From contig CAMDQN010000042.1 of NCBI GenBank assembly GCA_945905925.1, forward strand, positions 1 to 48,328: a stretch of DNA of 48,328 nt, in the 5' to 3' direction. This document shows, piece by piece, positions 8,100 to 39,625 of this stretch. The DNA comes from Singulisphaera sp. GP187 (GTDB lineage Bacteria; Planctomycetota; Planctomycetia; Gemmatales; Gemmataceae). The position numbers were made by a program, and so were the translations under genes. Within the stretch, counting starts at the first letter, position 1. Each line of letters starts with the position of its first letter. Under the pieces are notes generated by a model. It was not told the DNA's origin and made no database searches. It worked only from the letters and a program-made list of their open reading frames with translations.

Positions 8100-10574
8100 A
8101 TGCGCGAACGCCCAGCCTTCGACCTGTTCCTCGTTAGCTGGCTCGTGCTGTTCCTCGAACTCGCCTGCATCCGCTGGTTCCCGTCACACGTCCTGTTCCT
8201 CACGTTCTTCGTCAACCTCGTGCTGCTCGCGTGCTTCGTCGGCATGTCCGTCGGATGCCTCGTCGCGCGCCGGCCCACGAACTTCATTCGCCACACACCA
8301 TACTGGTTGCTCGCCGGCGTGCTGATCGGGCTTATCACCGACGCCAACTCCGGGTTCCTGCAAGCGGTGATCGCGGTTGGCGACCAAGAGCAGCCGGACG
8401 TCGTGTACTTCGGCACCGAGACTTCGGTGACGAAGAAGAACCCGCTCCCGTTCAGGCTGCCGATTGAACTCGTCGGTGGGCTGTACTTCGTGCTCATCGC
8501 GGGCATCATGGTCGGCCCCGGGCAAGAGATGGGGCGGGCGTTCAACCGCGTTACGAACCGCACCACCGCATACTCCGCGAACCTGTTCGGCAGTCTCGTG
8601 GGGATTGGCGCGCTGGCCGCGTGTTCGCTACTCCGGTTGCCGCCACTCGTGTGGTTTGGCCTCGCGGGCGGCGTACTCGCGTACTGGGTGGTGCGCAGCG
8701 CGCCGAACCCCTCCCCAACCTCTCCCCTAAAAAGGGAGGGTCTTCAGACTCCGGCTCCCCCTCTCTTGGGGGAGGGGGTTGGGGGGAGAGGTTCTTCCAC
8801 GCTGCCGCTCGCGTGCCTATTGACCGCTGTGATACTCACCGCCGTCACGTCTGGGTTCGTCCCGTACCGCGGGCTTCAGACCACGTGGAGCGAATACTAC
8901 CGCGTCGATTACGAACCGAAGAGCAAGTTCATCCTGACAAACCTCATCAGCCAGCAGTTGATGGAACCGCAGCAGAACCCGCCCGCGGCGGGCGTAGCGT
9001 ACGCACTGCCGTACCTGTTCCAGCGCGACCTCGTCGAGCGCGACGCGAACGGCAACCCAGTCCTCGGACCGAACGGTAAGCCGCACCACCTCTGGAAACC
9101 GTTCAAGCGAGTCCTCATCATTGGCGCCGGGAACGGCAACGACGTGGCCCGCGCGCTGCTCTGGGCCGACCCGGACACACGCATCGACGCCGTCGAGATC
9201 GACCCCGTCATTCAGAAGCTCGGCGCCAAGCCGCAGCCCGACGGTCACCCGGACCAGCCGTTCGCCGACCCACGCGTCACGGTCCACATCAACGATGGGC
9301 GGAACTTCCTCCGCAAAGTCGAGGCCGGCACCTACGACCTCGTCGTCTTCGCGCTCATCGACTCACTCGTGCTCCAGTCCGGGTACTCGAACCTCCGATT
9401 AGAGAGCTATCTCTTCACAATCGAATCGTTCAAAGATGTGCGCCGCGTGCTGAAGCCGACGGGCGTGTACGCGGTGTACAACTTCTTCCGCCAGCCGTGG
9501 ATCGCGGCCCGTATCCGGGACCAACTGCGCACCGCGTTCGGCGAAGACCCAGTGGTCGTCACCACGCCACCGCGGACCGCGATCCGGTTCGACGACCGGT
9601 TCGACTCTGGTGTGTGTACCGGGTTCTTCGCCGGCGGGCCAAATCTGTTGGACCCACTGCGCAAAGCGTTCGAGCCGCGCAACGGCCGACCGGTGAAATA
9701 CTGGTATCCGTGGTCCACTGGCGTGCCGAAAGACACGGAGGCCCAGTTCCACACCGACCAGCCCGTGAACCTGCCGCCGCAAACCAGACGGGCCGCGGAC
9801 GTGAAACCGACCGACCCCGCGCCGGAATGGCTCGGCCTGGTCACCGCTGAGATCGAGCAGAGCGGCCCGACCCTCCGCCCGGCGGACGACAACTGGCCGT
9901 TCCTCTACACCCGCGAGGCACGCGTCCCGAAGCAGACGTGGGTGAGCGTTGTGCTCACGCTGGTGCTCTCGGTCGGGCTGTGGTGGGCGTTCGGCGGGAA
10001 GCGGGCGCTCGTCGCGGAGGGGACGGTGCGGCCCGATTACCAGGCGATGCTCCGGGCGTTCTTTCTCGGTGCCGGGTTCATGCTCGTCGAGACGAAAGCT
10101 GTCGTGGAAATGGCGCTGTTGTTCGGCGGGACGTGGATGGTTAACACGGCGGTGTTCGCGGCCATCCTCGTGATGAGCCTCGTGGGGAACCTGTTCGCGG
10201 GAAAGGTGAATCCGAAGCGCCTCGAACCGTACTACATTGGGTTGATCGCCGCGCTCGCGGTGGGGCTGGTCGTTTCCCCGAACGTGTTCCTCGGGGCACA
10301 CCCGGTGGTGCAGGTATTGGGCGCGTGTGCGTTGGTGTTCACGCCGATCGCGTTCGCGGGCGTGATCTTCGCGACTAGTTTCAAGCGCACGACTCAACCG
10401 GATCGCGTGTTCGGGGCGAACGTCGCGGGAGCGCTCGTTGGCGGATTGGCTGAAAACAGTTCCGTGGTCCTCGGTTTCCAGTTACTCTTGTGTGTTGCGG
10501 TCGGATTTTATCTGCTGTCGGCCGCATTCGGGAACCGTAATCTGCCCGACCGCCTGGCAAATACGGAGGTATAA
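8100..10574 (+). CDS. Membrane spermidine-synthase-like protein
   Basis: This 824-residue protein has an N-terminal membrane part of about six or seven spans (8-260). A Rossmann methyltransferase-like domain of the spermidine synthase family follows at about 336-480, with VLIIGAGNGNDVARALL as nucleotide loop, DAVEIDP as acidic strand and HINDGRNFL. The C-terminal membrane part (about 620-815) has five or six spans. The usual catalytic YD..D region reads FALIDSLVLQ, so aminopropyl transfer is uncertain. Such fused proteins are common in planctomycetes and their reaction is unsettled. Residues about 203-233 are encoded by a family A repeat in a loop between two spans. The gene is divergent from DUF1501. 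Its last codons precede a long gene-free stretch. Confidence 0.85.
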   Translation: MRERPAFDLFLVSWLVLFLELACIRWFPSHVLFLTFFVNLVLLACFVGMSVGCLVARRPTNFIRHTPYWLLAGVLIGLITDANSGFLQAVIAVGDQEQPDVVYFGTETSVTKKNPLPFRLPIELVGGLYFVLIAGIMVGPGQEMGRAFNRVTNRTTAYSANLFGSLVGIGALAACSLLRLPPLVWFGLAGGVLAYWVVRSAPNPSPTSPLKREGLQTPAPPLLGEGVGGRGSSTLPLACLLTAVILTAVTSGFVPYRGLQTTWSEYYRVDYEPKSKFILTNLISQQLMEPQQNPPAAGVAYALPYLFQRDLVERDANGNPVLGPNGKPHHLWKPFKRVLIIGAGNGNDVARALLWADPDTRIDAVEIDPVIQKLGAKPQPDGHPDQPFADPRVTVHINDGRNFLRKVEAGTYDLVVFALIDSLVLQSGYSNLRLESYLFTIESFKDVRRVLKPTGVYAVYNFFRQPWIAARIRDQLRTAFGEDPVVVTTPPRTAIRFDDRFDSGVCTGFFAGGPNLLDPLRKAFEPRNGRPVKYWYPWSTGVPKDTEAQFHTDQPVNLPPQTRRAADVKPTDPAPEWLGLVTAEIEQSGPTLRPADDNWPFLYTREARVPKQTWVSVVLTLVLSVGLWWAFGGKRALVAEGTVRPDYQAMLRAFFLGAGFMLVETKAVVEMALLFGGTWMVNTAVFAAILVMSLVGNLFAGKVNPKRLEPYYIGLIAALAVGLVVSPNVFLGAHPVVQVLGACALVFTPIAFAGVIFATSFKRTTQPDRVFGANVAGALVGGLAENSSVVLGFQLLLCVAVGFYLLSAAFGNRNLPDRLANTEV
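8705..8797. repeat. Family A hairpin-pair repeat inside coding sequence
   Basis: GAACCCCTCCCCAACC at the left matches, as an inverted repeat, GGTTGGGGGGAGAGGTTC at the right. Each side also holds its own CCCTC...GAGGG hairpin. The length is about 93 nt, a multiple of three, and it is translated as a Pro/Gly-rich segment (NPSPTSPLKREG, then PPLLGEGVGGRG). The host protein continues as membrane spans on both sides. Confidence 0.85.
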
Positions 10575-13088: not shown

Positions 13089-13152
13089 GTGGAAAGTGGG
13101 CAGTGTGCAGAAAGACAAAGCCTGCTATTTTGCTTTTCTGCCCACTTTCCAC
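13089..13152. repeat. Inverted repeat between E1 beta and E2 genes
   Basis: Exact 15-nt arms GTGGAAAGTGGGCAG (13089-13103) and its complement (13138-13152) surround a 34-nt loop. Partial copies of the arm (GCAGTGG, CCACTGC) extend it outward. It lies inside the operon, 26 nt before the E2 start codon. It could be a dispersed repeat or an intra-operon attenuating or mRNA-stabilising hairpin; no T-run follows. Confidence 0.75.
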
Positions 13153-13177
13153 AGCCCACTGCGAGCGGAGCGAACAC

Positions 13178-14485
13178 ATGGACTTTCCTCTCCCGCCAGT
13201 TGGCGAAGGCTTGCTCGAAGTAGAGTTGGTGCGATGGCTCGTGCGGCCGGGCGATGCGATCACGCGCGGACAGGCGATGGCCGAGGTGATGTCGGATAAG
13301 GCCAGCATGGAGGTGCCGTCGCCGTTCGTGGGGACGATCACGGAGTTGGCCGCAACACCGGGCACGAAGGTCAAGGTTGGGCAGGTGATTCTGAGCTACA
13401 ACGCGGTCGGCGATGGAGCGAAGGCAGAACCTCTCCCCCCAACCCCCTCCCCTAAGAAGGGAGGGGGAGCCGAACCAAAACCAGAAGGCACCGCGTCTTC
13501 GGTTTTTAGCCCCTCCCTTCTTAGGGGAGGGGTTGGGGAGGGGTTGTCTTCGCGCACTAACGGCGTCACAACCCTTCCGCCTGCCGCGCCGTCCGTTCGC
13601 CTGCTCGCGCGCAAGCTCGGCGTCGATCTCGCGCACGTTCGCGGCAGCGGGCCACACGGGCGCATTCTGCTCGACGACCTCACGCCATATCTCGCCCCCA
13701 GGCCGAACCTCGATGCACGCCCCGCGTCCGCGCCGAACAAAACCGACACCTCGAAACTCGACTTCGGCATCGCGGGCACGCGGCAGAAACTCATCGGCCT
13801 GCGCCGGCGCATCGCCGAGCACATGGTTGAGTCGAAGAAGCACATTCCGCACTACTCGTACATCGACGAATGCGACCTGAGCGATGCGGTGAAACTGCGG
13901 AACCAGCTCCGCGAACCGCTCGCGAAGACCGGCGTCAAGCTCACCTACCTCGCGTTCTTCGTGAAGGCCGTCGCGCGGGCGCTCAAGGAAGTGCCCATCG
14001 TGAACAGCACCTACGACGAGGCTGCGGGCGAAGTGATTCTGCATAGCAAGTACCACATCGGTTTCGCGGTCGCGGCCCCGAGCGGCTTGATGGTGCCGGT
14101 GGTCAAGGACGCGGACAAGAAAGACCTCGCGACCATCGCCACCGATATCGAGCGCATGGGTAACGATGCGAAGTCGGGGAAGATCAAGATCGACGACCTG
14201 CGCGGCAGCACGTTCACGGTCACGTCGGTTGGCGGCATCGGCGGACTGATCTCGACCCCGATCATCAATCACCCGGAAGTCGGGATCATGGGCGTGGGCA
14301 AGGTGGTGAAGCGCCCGCTGTACGACGCGAACGGCGACCTGAAGCCGACGGACATCGTGTACCTGTCGTTCTCGTTCGACCACCGGGTTGTGGACGGCGC
14401 GATCGGGGCCGCGTTCGGCAACATCGTGGTGCACCACCTCCAGACCCCGGCCGTGCTGCTCCTGCCGGAGACGTTCGGTGGCTGA
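13178..14485 (+). CDS. 2-Oxoacid dehydrogenase E2 (dihydrolipoamide acyltransferase)
   Basis: The start is MDFPLPPVGEGL (13178), with GGAG 7 nt upstream. The 435-residue product has a lipoyl domain at about 1-78 (lipoylated Lys41 in EVMSDKASMEV). A linker at about 80-130 follows. The peripheral subunit-binding domain is at about 131-168 (SVRLLARKLGVDL, GSGPHGRI). The catalytic acyltransferase domain is at about 195-435 (active-site DHRVVDG with H402 and D406). The linker is largely a family A repeat, in frame (PTPSPKKGG and SPSLLRGGVGEG). No E3 gene is adjacent, so dihydrolipoamide dehydrogenase must be encoded elsewhere. Its stop codon overlaps the first GT87 gene by 8 nt. Confidence 0.95.
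   Translation: MDFPLPPVGEGLLEVELVRWLVRPGDAITRGQAMAEVMSDKASMEVPSPFVGTITELAATPGTKVKVGQVILSYNAVGDGAKAEPLPPTPSPKKGGGAEPKPEGTASSVFSPSLLRGGVGEGLSSRTNGVTTLPPAAPSVRLLARKLGVDLAHVRGSGPHGRILLDDLTPYLAPRPNLDARPASAPNKTDTSKLDFGIAGTRQKLIGLRRRIAEHMVESKKHIPHYSYIDECDLSDAVKLRNQLREPLAKTGVKLTYLAFFVKAVARALKEVPIVNSTYDEAAGEVILHSKYHIGFAVAAPSGLMVPVVKDADKKDLATIATDIERMGNDAKSGKIKIDDLRGSTFTVTSVGGIGGLISTPIINHPEVGIMGVGKVVKRPLYDANGDLKPTDIVYLSFSFDHRVVDGAIGAAFGNIVVHHLQTPAVLLLPETFGG
13427..13548. repeat. Family A repeat forming the E2 linker
   Basis: The left half has GAACCTCTCCCCCC then CCCTCCCCTAAGAAGGGAGG. The right half is CCCCTCCCTTCTTAGGGGAG then GGGTTGGGGAGGGG. The halves are complementary overall and each forms its own hairpin. 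The core between them is unrelated to other copies. It is read through in frame as a Pro/Lys/Gly-rich linker between the lipoyl and subunit-binding domains. Confidence 0.88.
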
Positions 14486-17935: not shown

Positions 17936-20011
17936 TCACTTCTTCACCGTCACCCAGATCACTTCGCTCGCATAACCGATCTTCACCACGAAGTTGATCG
18001 CCACGAACCCCTGCACACACACCGGCACGTCGGTGCATTCGGCCGCGTTCGCGTCGGCCTTCAGTGTGATGTGGCCCGTGCTGCCCGCGCCCAACAGTGT
18101 CTTGCTCTTGCCGTCCACCATTGTTACGCCCGGCGGGAGCGGGTTGCCGAACACGCTACCGAGGTGTCGCAAGGGCACGTCGAGCGTCACCGCCTTGTCG
18201 TACTGCGGTCCGCGAAGCACCTCCACGTCGATCTTCACTTCTTCGCCCGGCTTCAGCGTGATGCGGGTTTGCTTCACCTTGATCTCGGCGAGGTCCGACG
18301 CAGATGTGACCGCGACCGCCATCAAGCCCGCGTCGAACCGGCCGCGCCCGCCACCAGGCAGGTAAATCTCTTCCACCGCGACCGCCGTTCGCACGAGCGT
18401 GGTGGTCGCGTTCGCTTCGGTCAACTCCGCGGTGCCGATTACCTTCACGATCGAGGCGCCGAGGTTCGCGTCTTTCGCGGCGCTCACGACGAGCAACCCC
18501 TGCGTCATGTTCGCGGGGATCGTGAGCGCGTTCACGGTTACGCCCGCGGGAAGCCCTTCGACGGTTACCGTCACGGGGCCGGTGAAGCCGTTCGTGCGCG
18601 CCACTTGCACGTACCACGCGGTCCGCGAACCCGGGCCGATCATCGCCTTTGCAGGGTCGCACTTGATCGTGAAATCCGGGCGTGCAAAGTCGCATTCTAA
18701 ATAATAAACGAAGCCCGCGCCGCCCTTGTTGTTCAGGTCGCGCACGCGGACCACGTACTCGCCGTCGGCCAGCGGCGTGAAGATCAGGCCCGAGTCTTTG
18801 CCGACGAGGTCGTCGTTCGATGCAACGATTTTGCTGTCGGGTGTCATCACGTCGATTTGCGAATCGAGCTGGCTCGTGAGCGGTGTGCCGAATCGCCGCG
18901 CGAAGATTTCGATGCGGAGCGCTTTGCCCTTCGTTGCGGTGAAGATGAAGTGGTCGAGGTCGCGCTTCGTCCCAATGCGACCGTTCGCGCCGCCCGGTAG
19001 CGTGATGCGCGTGGCCTGCTTCGGCGTGTCGTTTGGTTCCTGCTCTTCGACCAGCGGAAGCGGTGTGACGACCACCGGCACCGGGTTCGTTTCGGTTCCG
19101 TTGAGTTTCAACGACGCGGTGTGAACGCCCACTGCGTTCGGTGCGGTAACGGTCCAGTCTTTGTCCGCGAGCGCGGCGCTACCGACGGGGGAAGCCTTCG
19201 CGGTCTTGCCTGGGTTCACCGCGAGCGGGAACGAGTACACCGCGCGCGGTGTATCGGTGATCGCCAGCGCGTAGACCCAACGGGGATCGCCATCGTACTT
19301 CGCGTCGCGGACCGCGATGCGGTACTCGGCGTCCTTCGGCACGGTGAACGTCAAAACGGGATCGGCGAAGTAGCCGTCGTCGGCGGCGGCGAGTTCGCGC
19401 CCATCGGTGTCGAAGATCGCGAGGAGCGGGTCCGCGTGCTTCTGGAGGTCGTGAATCTTGTCCTGAATGCGGGCGCAGATCACTTCGAGCGTGAGCGTTT
19501 GTCCGGCCTTCGCGGTGAACGTGTAGTAATCGACCGCTTCGGCCAGCCTGATGCGCCCGCACACAACAGAAGGTATCGCGATCGGGAGCGGCTTTGCCAT
19601 CGTGGATGGAGTTGGCTTCTCCGCGATAACGGGTGCATCGACGACGAGGAGTTGCCCGAGTGACGAGATGCCGAGCGCCGACGCGATGCGAAACTCGCGC
19701 ACGCCGGTGGCCGCGTCGGGCGCGACCGTGACCTTGAGCTTGCACGACAACACGAGCGCCGCAGGCGTCTTGGGGTCCGCGGCCTTCGGCGGTTCCTTAC
19801 CCGGAATCACTTCCGCCGTGACGCCGGTGCCTTCGAGGAGCACCTTATATGCGCCCGCGAGCGAGCTGGTGCGGCACTCAACGGTCACTTCCGCCGTGGT
19901 GCCGCGCTGCACCGCGACCGGCGACACGTGCGTGACCATCGGGAACGACGTTTGCGCCGCGACCGCGGGAGCGAACAGGGAGATGCACAGGAGGGCAGTG
20001 ACGGTGCGCAT
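17936..20011 (-). CDS. Secreted protein with two PPC domains
   Basis: The start is MRTVTALLCIS (20011), with GAGGAG 8 nt upstream. The frame continues upstream only through a repeat. The 691-residue product has a signal peptide (1-20). It has two bacterial pre-peptidase C-terminal (PPC) beta-sandwich domains. The first is at about 155-260 (DYYTFTAKAGQTLTLEV, LAIFDTDGRELAAADDG). The second is at about 320-440 (EEQEPNDTPKQATRI, DLDHFIFTATKGKALRIEIF, YVVRVRDLNNKGG). Ig-like beta domains make up the C-terminal part. No protease domain is present. PPC domains usually help secretion, surface attachment or carbohydrate/protein binding. It is probably an extracytoplasmic binding protein of unknown partner. 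Confidence 0.85.
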   Translation of the reverse strand: MRTVTALLCISLFAPAVAAQTSFPMVTHVSPVAVQRGTTAEVTVECRTSSLAGAYKVLLEGTGVTAEVIPGKEPPKAADPKTPAALVLSCKLKVTVAPDAATGVREFRIASALGISSLGQLLVVDAPVIAEKPTPSTMAKPLPIAIPSVVCGRIRLAEAVDYYTFTAKAGQTLTLEVICARIQDKIHDLQKHADPLLAIFDTDGRELAAADDGYFADPVLTFTVPKDAEYRIAVRDAKYDGDPRWVYALAITDTPRAVYSFPLAVNPGKTAKASPVGSAALADKDWTVTAPNAVGVHTASLKLNGTETNPVPVVVTPLPLVEEQEPNDTPKQATRITLPGGANGRIGTKRDLDHFIFTATKGKALRIEIFARRFGTPLTSQLDSQIDVMTPDSKIVASNDDLVGKDSGLIFTPLADGEYVVRVRDLNNKGGAGFVYYLECDFARPDFTIKCDPAKAMIGPGSRTAWYVQVARTNGFTGPVTVTVEGLPAGVTVNALTIPANMTQGLLVVSAAKDANLGASIVKVIGTAELTEANATTTLVRTAVAVEEIYLPGGGRGRFDAGLMAVAVTSASDLAEIKVKQTRITLKPGEEVKIDVEVLRGPQYDKAVTLDVPLRHLGSVFGNPLPPGVTMVDGKSKTLLGAGSTGHITLKADANAAECTDVPVCVQGFVAINFVVKIGYASEVIWVTVKK

Positions 20012-20029
20012 GGGAAGGCTCCTCGGAGA

Positions 20030-20127
20030 CCTAACCCCCCAACCCCCTTCCCTAAGAAGGAAGGGGGAGAAAAGCATCTTGGCTCTGCTCCCACTTCCTT
20101 CTTAGGGAAGGGGGTTGGGGGGTTAGG
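20030..20127. repeat. Complete family A element, perfect 31-bp terminal inverted repeats
   Basis: The arms at 20030-20060 and 20097-20127 are exact reverse complements with a 36-nt spacer. Each arm begins CCTAACCCCCCAACCCCC and contains a nested CCCTTCCCTAAGAAGGAAGG hairpin. It lies between the 5' end of the PPC gene and the 3' end of the next minus-strand gene. This is the best-preserved copy and defines the family ends. Confidence 0.92.
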
Positions 20128-20137
20128 TTGCCTTTGT

Positions 20138-36869: not shown

Positions 36870-37766
36870 ATGCCCTACGAAATGCAAATCGACCGCTCGA
36901 ACCCCGGCTGCATTGTGTTCCTGGTGGATCTGTCCAACTCCATGTTGGACGGCATCGCGGGCACGCAGCGCGCGAAGATGGACACTGTGTCCACTGCCAT
37001 CAACCGGTTCTTTCAGGAACTCATTACGAGTTGCGAGAAGGGCGAAGAAAAGCCGCGTAACTACTTCGACGTGGGCTTGATCGGGTACACCACCGACGCC
37101 AACGGTGTCGCGATCGTGCGCCCGCTGTTCCAACTTGCCCTCGCTGGCCGCGACCTCGTTTCGATAAGCGAACTGTACGACAACCCGCTGGAGATCGAGC
37201 AACGGCGGAAGAAGGAGTTCGTGGACGACGGCGCCGGTGGCCTCTCGGAAGTGGAACGGCAGATCGCGTTTCCCGTGTGGTTCCGCTCGCCGCCGCCGAC
37301 TGAGATGTTCGGCACGCCGATGTGTACCGCGCTGGGCTACTGCAAACAAATTCTCGAAGCGTGGATTGCCAGCCACGGGAACAGCTTCCCGCCGATGGTC
37401 ATCAACCTGACCGACGGCGAGTCCACCGACGGGATGCCGGTTCCGTTCGCGGAAGAACTCAAGGGTCTCGCGACCGCCGACGGCAACGTGCTGCTGTTCA
37501 ACTGCCACCTGTCGGGCCGCGACGCGCAACCGGTGTTCCTGCCGCCGACGGAAGGTTTGCTCCCGGACGAGTACGCCCGCGATCTGTTCGGCATGTCGAG
37601 TCCGCTGCCGGACAAACTACGGCACATGGCTGAGGTGAAAGGCATTTCGGCACCACTCGGGTGCAAGGCGATGGCGTTCAACGCGGACGCGGTGAGCCTG
37701 TTGAAGTTGTTGAACGTCGGCACGCAGGTGGTCGCCGCGGCCACGCTGCCGCCTCACTTGCGGTAA
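36870..37766 (+). CDS. Von Willebrand factor A (vWA) domain protein
   Basis: GAGGAG stands 9 nt before the ATG. The 298-residue cytoplasmic protein is essentially one vWA domain (about 14-215). The metal-binding MIDAS motif is DLSNSM (D20, S22, S24). Its later Thr/Asp contributions are probably in the GYTTDANG and INLTDGEST (about 180-190) segments. It resembles TerY-type stand-alone vWA proteins, which act in phosphorylation-linked surface or stress systems with PP2C phosphatases and kinases. It lies 92 nt before the PP2C fusion gene, with a hairpin terminator between, so expression of the second gene may be partial. No signal peptide is seen. Confidence 0.9.
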   Translation: MPYEMQIDRSNPGCIVFLVDLSNSMLDGIAGTQRAKMDTVSTAINRFFQELITSCEKGEEKPRNYFDVGLIGYTTDANGVAIVRPLFQLALAGRDLVSISELYDNPLEIEQRRKKEFVDDGAGGLSEVERQIAFPVWFRSPPPTEMFGTPMCTALGYCKQILEAWIASHGNSFPPMVINLTDGESTDGMPVPFAEELKGLATADGNVLLFNCHLSGRDAQPVFLPPTEGLLPDEYARDLFGMSSPLPDKLRHMAEVKGISAPLGCKAMAFNADAVSLLKLLNVGTQVVAAATLPPHLR

Positions 37767-37858: not shown

Positions 37859-39625
37859 ATGGACCCGACCCCCGCCGAGCCGCCGCCCGGTTGTCTCGTA
37901 CTGCTACTCCGCCTGTCGGTCGACATGACCGCGGACGTGGTCACGTCGCGCGGCGAGGTGCCGGCGTTCGCGGCGGCGCGCCAACTCGCGGACGAACTGC
38001 TTGACGGATTGGTGAACACCGTCGCGGCCGGGTACGCGGTCGGAGCCCTCGATGTCGCGGTGTTGGGTTACCGAACTTGGCTCGGCGACACCCCGCAATT
38101 GCTCTCGCTGCTCCCCGACGGCGACCCAAAGGCGCGGTTCGTGCCGCTCGCGCGCGTCGCGGAGATGCCCGCTGTCGCGCGCGGGGGCGAAGGACTTCCG
38201 CGCAAGTGGGCCGTCGTCCTAGCGTGCGAAGGCGAGCCATGCGAGACCGCCGCACTCGCGAGCGTTTACCAGATGGTGTCGGTGTGGCTCACCGGCCGCT
38301 ACGCGAGCCGCCCGCCGGTCGTGATTCACTGCACTGGTGCGGACGCGCTCGACGACGCGTACCTTCGCGTGGCCCGCTCGCTGACGCTCCTCGCGACCGC
38401 ACACGGCCCGGCGCGGCTGATGCATTACGTGTTTGGGGAACCTACCCCCCCGGCCCCCCTCCCTGAAGGGAAGGTGGAAAGAGAAGAACCCACCCCCCAA
38501 CCCCCTCCCTGCAGGGAGGGGGAGAAAGAGTTGGGCGCGACATTGAACGTGAGCGAGTTGCGAAGCTCTTGCTCCCCCTCCCTGGGGGGAGGGGGTTGGG
38601 GGGTGGGTTCTTCTTTCCCCGGCCGCGTGTTTGTTAACGACTGGGACATCACCGACCCGTGGGACGCGCTCTTCACCTACGCCATGCAGGAAGACGGAAT
38701 CGCGTGGGCGGAATCGGGCGCGGGGTTCGCGCCGGCGCGCTCGATGTGGGCGCAGAAGATGGGCAACACGCCGGAGCAGTGGGAAGACGCGTTCGCGCTG
38801 AACGAGGCCGCGGGCGCGGCGGCAATCGCGGACGGGGCGAGTAGCGGCATCTATTGCAGCATCTGGGCGCAGCAGTTGAGTCAGCGGTTCCTGTCCGACC
38901 GACCCGATACGCGCGACCCGATCGCGCTGAATAAGTGGGTAAATGGTCTGCGAACGGAGTGGCGCACCGCGATCAGTTATAGTACGCTGAACTGGTCGAA
39001 ACAGGCGAAGGTCGATCAGGTGGGCGCGGCGGCAACGCTTTTAGGACTGGAACTCGGTCCCGCGGACGACAAGGGCAATCGACCCTGGCGCGCGTGTGCG
39101 GTCGGCGACGCGAGCCTCTTCTGGGTGCGCGCGGGCAAGTTGCTCGCGACGTTCCCGGTGGTCGCGGCCGATCAGTTCGGGTCCGCGCCGCTGTTGGTCC
39201 GGTCGAACCCCGGCTTCCGCACGGTCGCGGTGGCCGCCGCCGGAACGTGCGAACTAGGCGACCGGTTCATCCTTGCGACGGACGCCGTTGCCGCGAGGCT
39301 GTTCAAGAGCGCCGCGACCGGACCCGGCCCGGAGTGGACCCGGTTCGAGGTGATCGCAGAAGAAGTGTGGCGCGCCGAGTTGGACGTACTCCGGCGCGCG
39401 AACGACATGGTGAACGACGACTGCACGCTCGTCGTTCTTCGCGTCAGTGGCGGAAGCGAAGATCAGGGGGCTGACGCCCCTCGCTCGCCACAGAACGAAG
39501 GCGATATCATCGCGGCCGATGCCGGCGACCTGATGATCGACTTGCCCCACGACCCGCCGGCTCCGAACAATAACCCCCAGGCAACCAGGGACGGTTTCCC
39601 GGAATCGACGGACCCGGGCGTCTGA
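37859..39625 (+). CDS. Degenerate vWA plus PP2C-type phosphatase fusion
   Basis: The 588-residue protein starts with a vWA-like region (about 10-190: GCLVLLLRLSVDMTADVV, VGALDVAVLGYRTW). It lacks a MIDAS DxSxS, so it should not bind metal there. A PP2C_2-type phosphatase domain follows at about 265-535. It has NEAAGAAAIADGASSG (metal-binding Asp), GDASLFWVRAGKL, GDRFILATDAVAARLF and VNDDCTLVVLRV (last metal-binding Asp). It would remove phosphate from Ser/Thr proteins, but no kinase is adjacent; the nearest is at 3880-5745. The linker (about 194-252) is made of family A repeats and residues 535-546 come from a family B repeat. The vWA gene upstream suggests a TerY-like vWA/PP2C pair. Confidence 0.88.
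   Translation: MDPTPAEPPPGCLVLLLRLSVDMTADVVTSRGEVPAFAAARQLADELLDGLVNTVAAGYAVGALDVAVLGYRTWLGDTPQLLSLLPDGDPKARFVPLARVAEMPAVARGGEGLPRKWAVVLACEGEPCETAALASVYQMVSVWLTGRYASRPPVVIHCTGADALDDAYLRVARSLTLLATAHGPARLMHYVFGEPTPPAPLPEGKVEREEPTPQPPPCREGEKELGATLNVSELRSSCSPSLGGGGWGVGSSFPGRVFVNDWDITDPWDALFTYAMQEDGIAWAESGAGFAPARSMWAQKMGNTPEQWEDAFALNEAAGAAAIADGASSGIYCSIWAQQLSQRFLSDRPDTRDPIALNKWVNGLRTEWRTAISYSTLNWSKQAKVDQVGAAATLLGLELGPADDKGNRPWRACAVGDASLFWVRAGKLLATFPVVAADQFGSAPLLVRSNPGFRTVAVAAAGTCELGDRFILATDAVAARLFKSAATGPGPEWTRFEVIAEEVWRAELDVLRRANDMVNDDCTLVVLRVSGGSEDQGADAPRSPQNEGDIIAADAGDLMIDLPHDPPAPNNNPQATRDGFPESTDPGV
38438..38613. repeat. Two family A repeats in the vWA/PP2C linker
   Basis: A single hairpin unit at about 38438-38480 precedes a complete element at 38486-38610. 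The complete element has exact 23-nt terminal arms (GAACCCACCCCCCAACCCCC followed by TCC) and inner CCCTCCCTGCAGGGAGGG hairpins. Both are in frame and give Pro/Glu/Gly-rich sequence (EPTPPAPLPEGK, EPTPQPPPCREGEK, SPSLGGGGWGVG). This adds roughly 58 residues between the two domains. Confidence 0.9.
39461..39496. repeat. Family B repeat, copy 4, near the PP2C C-terminus
   Basis: ATCAGGGGGCTGACGCCCCT and then CGCTCGCCA agree with copies at 41-70 and 7721-7755. It is translated as DQGADAPRSPQN, in a different frame from copies 2 and 3, just after the last phosphatase strand. Confidence 0.8.

Follow-up and report, generated by a model that had tools for sequence, protein, structure and literature searches.

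The gene at positions 37859 to 39625 (+ strand) of the window, i.e., of the whole 48,328-nucleotide stretch of DNA analyzed here, raises the question of how two palindromic repeats, one a single hairpin and the other a complete element, came to make up the linker between the two halves of one protein. The gene (P0001) encodes a 588-residue vWA-like/PP2C-like fusion protein, and its frame is open across the repeats, with zero stop codons. Upstream lies a gene for another vWA protein (36870 to 37766, + strand), whose matches to Pfam VWA_2 (E = 0.001) and VWA (E = 0.0013) both fall under the curated cutoff; the fusion protein itself gave zero matches to Pfam or NCBIfam families. The window's own genome is denoted G000 and, together with 18 congeners, makes up the 19 genomes of the genus compared below.

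The two halves of the protein were distinguished by separate searches with each of them. The N-terminal half alone matched a stand-alone vWA-like protein of genome G041 (30.6% over 183 residues, E = 3e-9), and the C-terminal half alone matched separate genes in G019, G021, G034, G040, and G041. A Foldseek search of the PDB with the whole model returned PP2C phosphatases at the top (tPphA, E = 1e-8, probability 1.00) and also vWA domains (MIC2, 6e-5; Rpn10, 2e-4; TFIIH, 4e-4), in a listing that gave no aligned ranges, so that we infer which match belongs to which half. On these grounds the vWA-like domain was placed at residues about 11 to 192 (37889 to 38434, + strand) and the PP2C-like phosphatase domain at residues about 256 to 530 (38624 to 39448, + strand). 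Read by eye, the vWA-like part apparently lacks the DxSxS metal motif. The AlphaFold2 model, built on 16 aligned sequences, had a pLDDT of 75.7 and a pTM of 0.78, with pLDDT below 50 at residues 196 to 251, which correspond to the insert and sit between the two confident domains, and at residues 533 to 588, the C-terminal tail. The insert is therefore predicted to be disordered. The disordered tail carries, at 39465 to 39489 (+ strand), an in-frame hairpin of a second family, unrelated to the linker hairpins and encoding QGADAPRS; this family occupies 62 places on the + strand and 55 on the − strand of the same genome (reversed control, 0), and similar peptides, QGADAPRSP or QGADATRSP, occur at that position in the tails of G010 and G018.

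The insert, at 38438 to 38614, consists of a C-rich single hairpin followed by a complete two-hairpin element, both in frame between the domains. This arrangement had been claimed by a first-pass annotation made from the letters alone, and it was borne out by the repeat search, the open reading frame, and the shuffled controls: searched for with at most 3 mismatches, the hairpin pattern gave 10 matches at 5 places on both strands of the window, against 0.00 expected from 100 shuffles. The outer single hairpin (38438 to 38481, + strand), of the CCGG subtype, was found by the repeat search as a hairpin unit at 38447 to 38474, and positions 3 to 41 of the stretch 38438 to 38620 are 97% matched to a CCGG-type element at C64 of the same genome; it probably represents an older element's left half. 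The complete inner element (38482 to 38614, + strand) is made of a left hairpin arm (38482 to 38530, core 38501 to 38522), a spacer of the kind that varies from element to element (38531 to 38565), and a right hairpin arm (38566 to 38614, core 38574 to 38595), all on the + strand, the two 49-nt arms being inverted, 94% complementary, and 35 nt apart. The exact terminal arms had been given as 23 nt, which is an underestimate, as they measure 28 nt (38482 to 38509 and 38587 to 38614). The estimate of about 58 added residues holds as the coding content of 176 nt only; the net gain amounts to about 20 to 40 residues, because the linker has 67 residues in G000 and 27 to 47 in repeat-free orthologues. 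Of the features of MITEs, terminal inverted repeats are present as the exact 28-nt arms; as regards a target site duplication, the flanks are remodeled at the linker locus, the first element having replaced them. By eye, the G-rich strand of the arms (38584 to 38608 and similar; GGGGGGAGGGGGTTGGGGGGTGGG) fits a G-quadruplex motif.

The hairpin belongs to a dispersed family. It occupies 149 to 151 places in its own 6.5-Mb genome (reversed control, 0), and its count ranges from 0 to 238 (the latter in G016) across the 19 genomes of the genus, 14 of which have at least one, with G004 having a single hairpin versus two in its reversed control. Complete copies consist of two hairpins with cores mostly 70 to 75 nt apart, in some cases 36 to 48 or 80 to 87, around a variable spacer, and in the 22 copies measured the conserved ends lie 81 to 131 nt apart. 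Arms differ less within an element than between elements (mean, 7.8 versus 11.5 edits per 45 nt; permutation P = 1e-4 for 18 elements), and the hairpin pair is therefore the unit. Several subtypes (CCAACC, CCGGCC, different loops) coexist. Stacking is not confined to the fusion gene: three hairpins are stacked at G000:C190 (L140), and a broken hairpin adjoins a complete element at C58.

We then determined how often the elements reside in genes. Sixty-five loci served as input, 17 of which gave no row (4 overlaps and 13 without a core within 3 substitutions or at an end); of the 49 cluster rows obtained, 5 were excluded for their closeness to a sequence end, leaving 44 clusters, a nonrandom sample drawn from the best-matching places. 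Fifteen of these 44 showed open-frame read-through with coding-like codon scores on both sides, as judged by a codon-score heuristic whose threshold of 0.10 was chosen after the calibration had been seen; a sixteenth, L121, was borderline. Most of the sampled clusters comprised one or two hairpins. By reading, 13 of the 16 in-frame clusters use the frame starting with PTP, as PTPPAPLPEGKG...SPFPSGRGAGGVG. Among the 22 elements with recognizable ends, 7 of the 8 in-frame copies had a length of 2 mod 3 versus 3 of the 14 others, two of which (L002 and L140) were unclassed edge cases (one-sided Fisher test by hand calculation, P about 0.005). Since in-frame read-through demands a fixed total length, this contrast speaks for constant insertion ends and not for selection. 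Besides the fusion gene there were 15 in-frame hosts, L121 included, and in 9 of them the insert falls outside the best Pfam matches listed, e.g., in one protein between its two UPF0261 domains and in another between cytochrome c and ThuA; in 3 (penicillin amidase, aldehyde dehydrogenase, and the HAD part of a P-type ATPase) it lies inside or splits a domain match, in 2 the placement was unclear, and 1 host was a protein without a family. The hairpin-coded peptides recur in unrelated enzymes.

Three further elements were seen in the window. The open reading frame 8100 to 10574, whose product has a spermidine-synthase-like part, carries an in-frame, degenerate element of similar two-hairpin build at 8690 to 8797. 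A complete one, at about 13428 to 13546, is a third in-frame insertion within the 48-kb window; its host, the open reading frame 13103 to 14485, is by eye a dihydrolipoamide acyltransferase (E2), with the insert in the linker behind the lipoyl domain. Another complete element, at 20029 to 20128, lies at the 5' end of the minus-strand open reading frame 17936 to 20077; it is of the CCTAACC/TTCCCTAAGAAGG subtype and closely resembles the linker element of G010.

DNA of this kind is intragenic and REP- or REPIN-like, or similar to Rickettsia palindromic elements (RPEs). PMC3733652 describes intragenic REPs in several species, reports REPs from Planctomycetes too, and names two O. terrae uvrA genes carrying REPs. 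It places a single REP and a REP dimer inside one O. terrae uvrA gene, so that this combination within one gene is already published, and our elements resemble those REPs in being in-frame palindromic repeats within genes, as singles and dimers; a possible difference is that the REP families treated there are tagged with GTAG or CGTC at one of their ends (PMC3733652). The outer ends of the hairpin elements described here read GGTAGG or GGTGGG. This would be the side of the hairpin opposite to that of the tag in canonical REPs. RPEs, as reviewed in PMC10969869, are palindromic selfish DNA of about 100 to 150 bp that adds peptides in frame to unrelated genes, and nearly half of the first 44 were located in genes. 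The elements studied here are alike in nature, size, and in-frame residence in unrelated protein genes (15 of the 44 sampled clusters, with presence or absence among relatives seen in two genes), whereas the bacteria, the genic share, and apparently the sequence differ from those of RPEs (PMC10969869). Among the open-access papers listed for the subject we found no description of this palindrome family in Gemmata, which is weak evidence of absence.

To establish how the insert arose, we compared the orthologues. A search of 59 relatives found the fusion gene in all 18 congeners, and the linker turned out to be 67 residues long in G000, 45 in G010, 28 in G003, and 8 in G018, while in the remaining 15 genomes it had 27 to 47 residues and was repeat-free by eye. 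The linker of G003 holds a decayed hairpin whose flanks are those of the outer hairpin in G000 and whose CCGG trace marks it as belonging to that subtype, that of G010 a complete element of another subtype with slightly different borders, and that of G018 only the apparent right end of an element (all by eye); G003 lacks the complete inner element found in G000. A three-row DNA alignment paired the G003 hairpin with the inner and not the outer element of G000, because the hairpins are so alike; read by eye against that alignment, the G003 hairpin would be the orthologue of the outer one.

A protein tree with 19 rows left the close clade unresolved, and therefore a DNA tree of the gene itself without the linker was made for 12 of the 19 genomes (G002, G004, G008, G011, G013, G014, and G017 were left out, and the row for G015 is partial, 315 of 454 residues). 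It joined G000 with G003 and G010 with G018, each with support of 100/99. Grouping the four inserted genomes in one clade was rejected (p-AU = 0.0023; fewest changes, 2), and with it a single ancestral insertion for all four. Since the inner element is absent from G003 and G010/G018 were hit on a separate branch, the sequences point to at least three insertions into the linker, although gene conversion could mimic independent insertions. The proposal of serial insertion at one spot thus stands, with the outer hairpin common to G000 and G003, the inner element restricted to G000, and G010/G018 on another branch.

The history that we consider very probable is that dispersed, nonautonomous palindromes serially entered a preexisting vWA-PP2C linker and persist where frame and tolerance allow. 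The element would be a nonautonomous dispersed palindrome of this Gemmata-like genus, built of two inverted C-rich hairpins around a variable spacer and presumably spread by transposition as a copying process. An element of the CCGG subtype would have entered the linker in an ancestor shared by G000 and G003, displaced the older linker, and decayed; one of the CCAACC subtype would then have landed beside or inside the first in the G000 lineage only. On the separate branch, a further subtype would have entered the same linker (G010/G018) and been largely deleted in G018. Copies would persist where the frame is kept and a flexible peptide rich in P, G, S, and E is tolerated, so that the same permissive sites would be hit repeatedly. 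The insert would be neutral, and the vWA-PP2C protein most likely keeps working with a longer, disordered tether.

That one protein site can be hit again and again was seen in two other genes. The aldehyde dehydrogenase loop that carries an insert in G000 is short in five congeners (G004, G006, G008, G011, and G017), with little or nothing between the flanking matches. The other 13 match across or overlap the insert, and of their loops (L168 to L180), all of which were read, 11 contain a hairpin core or inverted arms at least 14 nt long, that of G007 has a repeat by eye, and that of G001 has none. The inserts are diverse: C-rich elements of several subtypes in G005, G010, G012, and G016, a CTAAGAAGG type in G015, a GCGGGAGAGG type in G003 and G013, and long palindromes of other sequence in G002 (arms, 30), G014 (30), and G018 (33). 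In the loop of G012 a single hairpin is followed by a complete element, the same arrangement as in the fusion gene linker; that of G014 holds a near-perfect palindrome and that of G002 a repeated unit plus a palindrome. At the UPF0261 site, only 12 to 15 nt separate the matches flanking the G000 insert in G003, G004, and G005, while G010 has a complete element with arms of 40 nt or more and G016 a different palindrome with arms of 30; no inverted repeat was present at this site in G006. Since inserts of differing sequence occupy one protein site, a tolerant protein position is favored over one DNA target as the explanation of the repeated hits. Of the two options offered by the first-pass annotation, the relaxed linker acting as a sink is thus upheld, the permissive loop of the aldehyde dehydrogenase and the linker between the UPF0261 domains likewise holding different palindromes across relatives, and copies found in unrelated genes and unlike inserts at one protein site require no single preferred DNA target.

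It is nevertheless conceivable, if rather doubtful, that the DNA itself is a hot spot, either because new elements favor old ones or because several palindrome families have a target in common. Stacks do recur (at C190, at C58, and in the G012 aldehyde dehydrogenase), and several of the unlike aldehyde dehydrogenase inserts share, by eye, the ends GAACC...GGTTC, so that one mobilizer is possible. However, most of the sampled clusters have only one or two hairpins, and survival in a tolerant loop suffices to bring unlike inserts to the same protein site without any target.

We asked next whether a REP-associated tyrosine transposase (RAYT; Y1, PF01797) might move the insert, which would make it a true REPIN. 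In PMC3116915, a REPIN is two REPs inverted around a spacer, singlets are treated as remnants, and REPINs are defined in extragenic space, adjoining their RAYT gene. Inverted hairpin doublets at high copy number, with singles and doublets, match this anatomy, and the outer hairpin fits the remnant view; the differences are the in-gene copies and a RAYT link that was not found at 32 Y1 loci and in 19 genomes (PMC3116915). Y1 transposases are present in 16 of the 19 genomes, but zero hairpin cores were found in the 100,811 bases that surround 32 Y1 loci (of about 80 matches), a null that is weak alone because about one core is expected at mean density. Moreover, the presence of Y1 and that of hairpins do not track each other across the 19 genomes: G007, a one-contig genome, has 116 hairpins and no Y1 match, and G008, G013, and G014 have 4 to 7 Y1 matches and zero hairpins. 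In the own genome, two Y1 genes (L057 and L058) are flanked, by eye, by other repeats, GCCGCAAGCC...GCGAGCGCGCCAC and GGGTCGAACGCTAAACG, which counts against RAYT mobilization of the hairpins and means that other REP-like families in this genome may be RAYT-driven. A search for Y1 transposases thus tied none of them to the hairpin family. With these differing distributions and no core around the 32 loci, RAYT mobilization was rejected as the default, and that the insert is a true REPIN appears unlikely. The element works like a REPIN yet does not qualify as one as regards the defining partner gene, since no hairpin core flanked a RAYT (Y1) gene at the 32 loci.

A function of the hairpins, e.g., as a translational pause between the domains or as a regulatory linker, would be in keeping with the very strong coding-region RNA hairpin between two folding units: the RNA fold of the insert reaches −140 kcal/mol (z = −11.7; DNA, z = −11.4), and none of 200 shuffles was as good. 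However, retention for function is very improbable, as the insert is missing from 15 of the 19 orthologues, the same peptides occur in unrelated enzymes, and the sister copy in G003 was allowed to decay.

There remained the suggestion that the repeat had helped to fuse two once-separate genes. Both domains lie in a single open reading frame in every one of the 19 genomes compared, five of them (G008, G011, G013, G014, and G017) without any match to the hairpin pattern, and the loci L166 and L167 of more distant Gemmataceae are likewise fused, so the fusion is older than the repeat. Many of the repeat-free linkers are mutually related, reading by eye RL..VSAELP....RR.VFV, a motif absent where the repeat sits; the linker of repeat-free orthologues, offered as a check on whether it pre-dates the repeat, is thus shared among them and speaks against the fusion idea. 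Unfused neighbors do exist in other genera: in G019, G021, G040, and G041, separate adjacent vWA-like and PP2C-like genes are followed by a kinase-like gene (partly by eye; Pfam supports the kinase in G041 only and VWA in G019). This resembles the TerY-P triad, which PMC4978471 describes as TerY vWA, a kinase, and PP2C, and of which the vWA and PP2C parts of the host protein are reminiscent; unlike in that triad (PMC4978471), PP2C in the genus studied here is joined to a second vWA, a degenerate one, and in the window, which holds the vWA and vWA-PP2C genes, no kinase family was found among the neighboring genes tested. The orthologue comparison that had been proposed did yield none, decayed single, and single-plus-complete states of the linker as well as unfused neighbors, but it went against the fusion idea. 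Although the repeat sits exactly at the junction of the two domains and unfused vWA-like/PP2C-like neighbors are known, joining of the genes by the repeat was rejected and is extremely improbable, the gene being fused in all 19 genomes and the linker repeat-free in 15 of them.

The lesson of this locus is that a repeat placed exactly at a domain junction did not create the fusion, and it shows where the wrong inference originates. Living relatives display untouched, first-hit, second-hit, and separately hit states of the same linker, which makes the serial entry of palindromes into it a clear, ordered case of selfish palindromes replacing a protein linker. The aldehyde dehydrogenase loop would allow measuring how protein sites become permanent landing places, and a genus whose genomes carry 0 to 238 hairpins, distributed unlike Y1, is a good place to seek the mobilizer. 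Beyond the single locus, we put forward tentatively, as something that may be so though the chances are below even, that several coding palindrome families, perhaps sharing the ends GAACC...GGTTC, spread Gemmata-wide without Y1/RAYT, via an unrecognized enzyme or hairpin-templated replication, and repeatedly rewrite surface loops and the linkers between domains at recurring positions of the proteins; linkers in this genus would then evolve by turnover of elements and not by point mutation.
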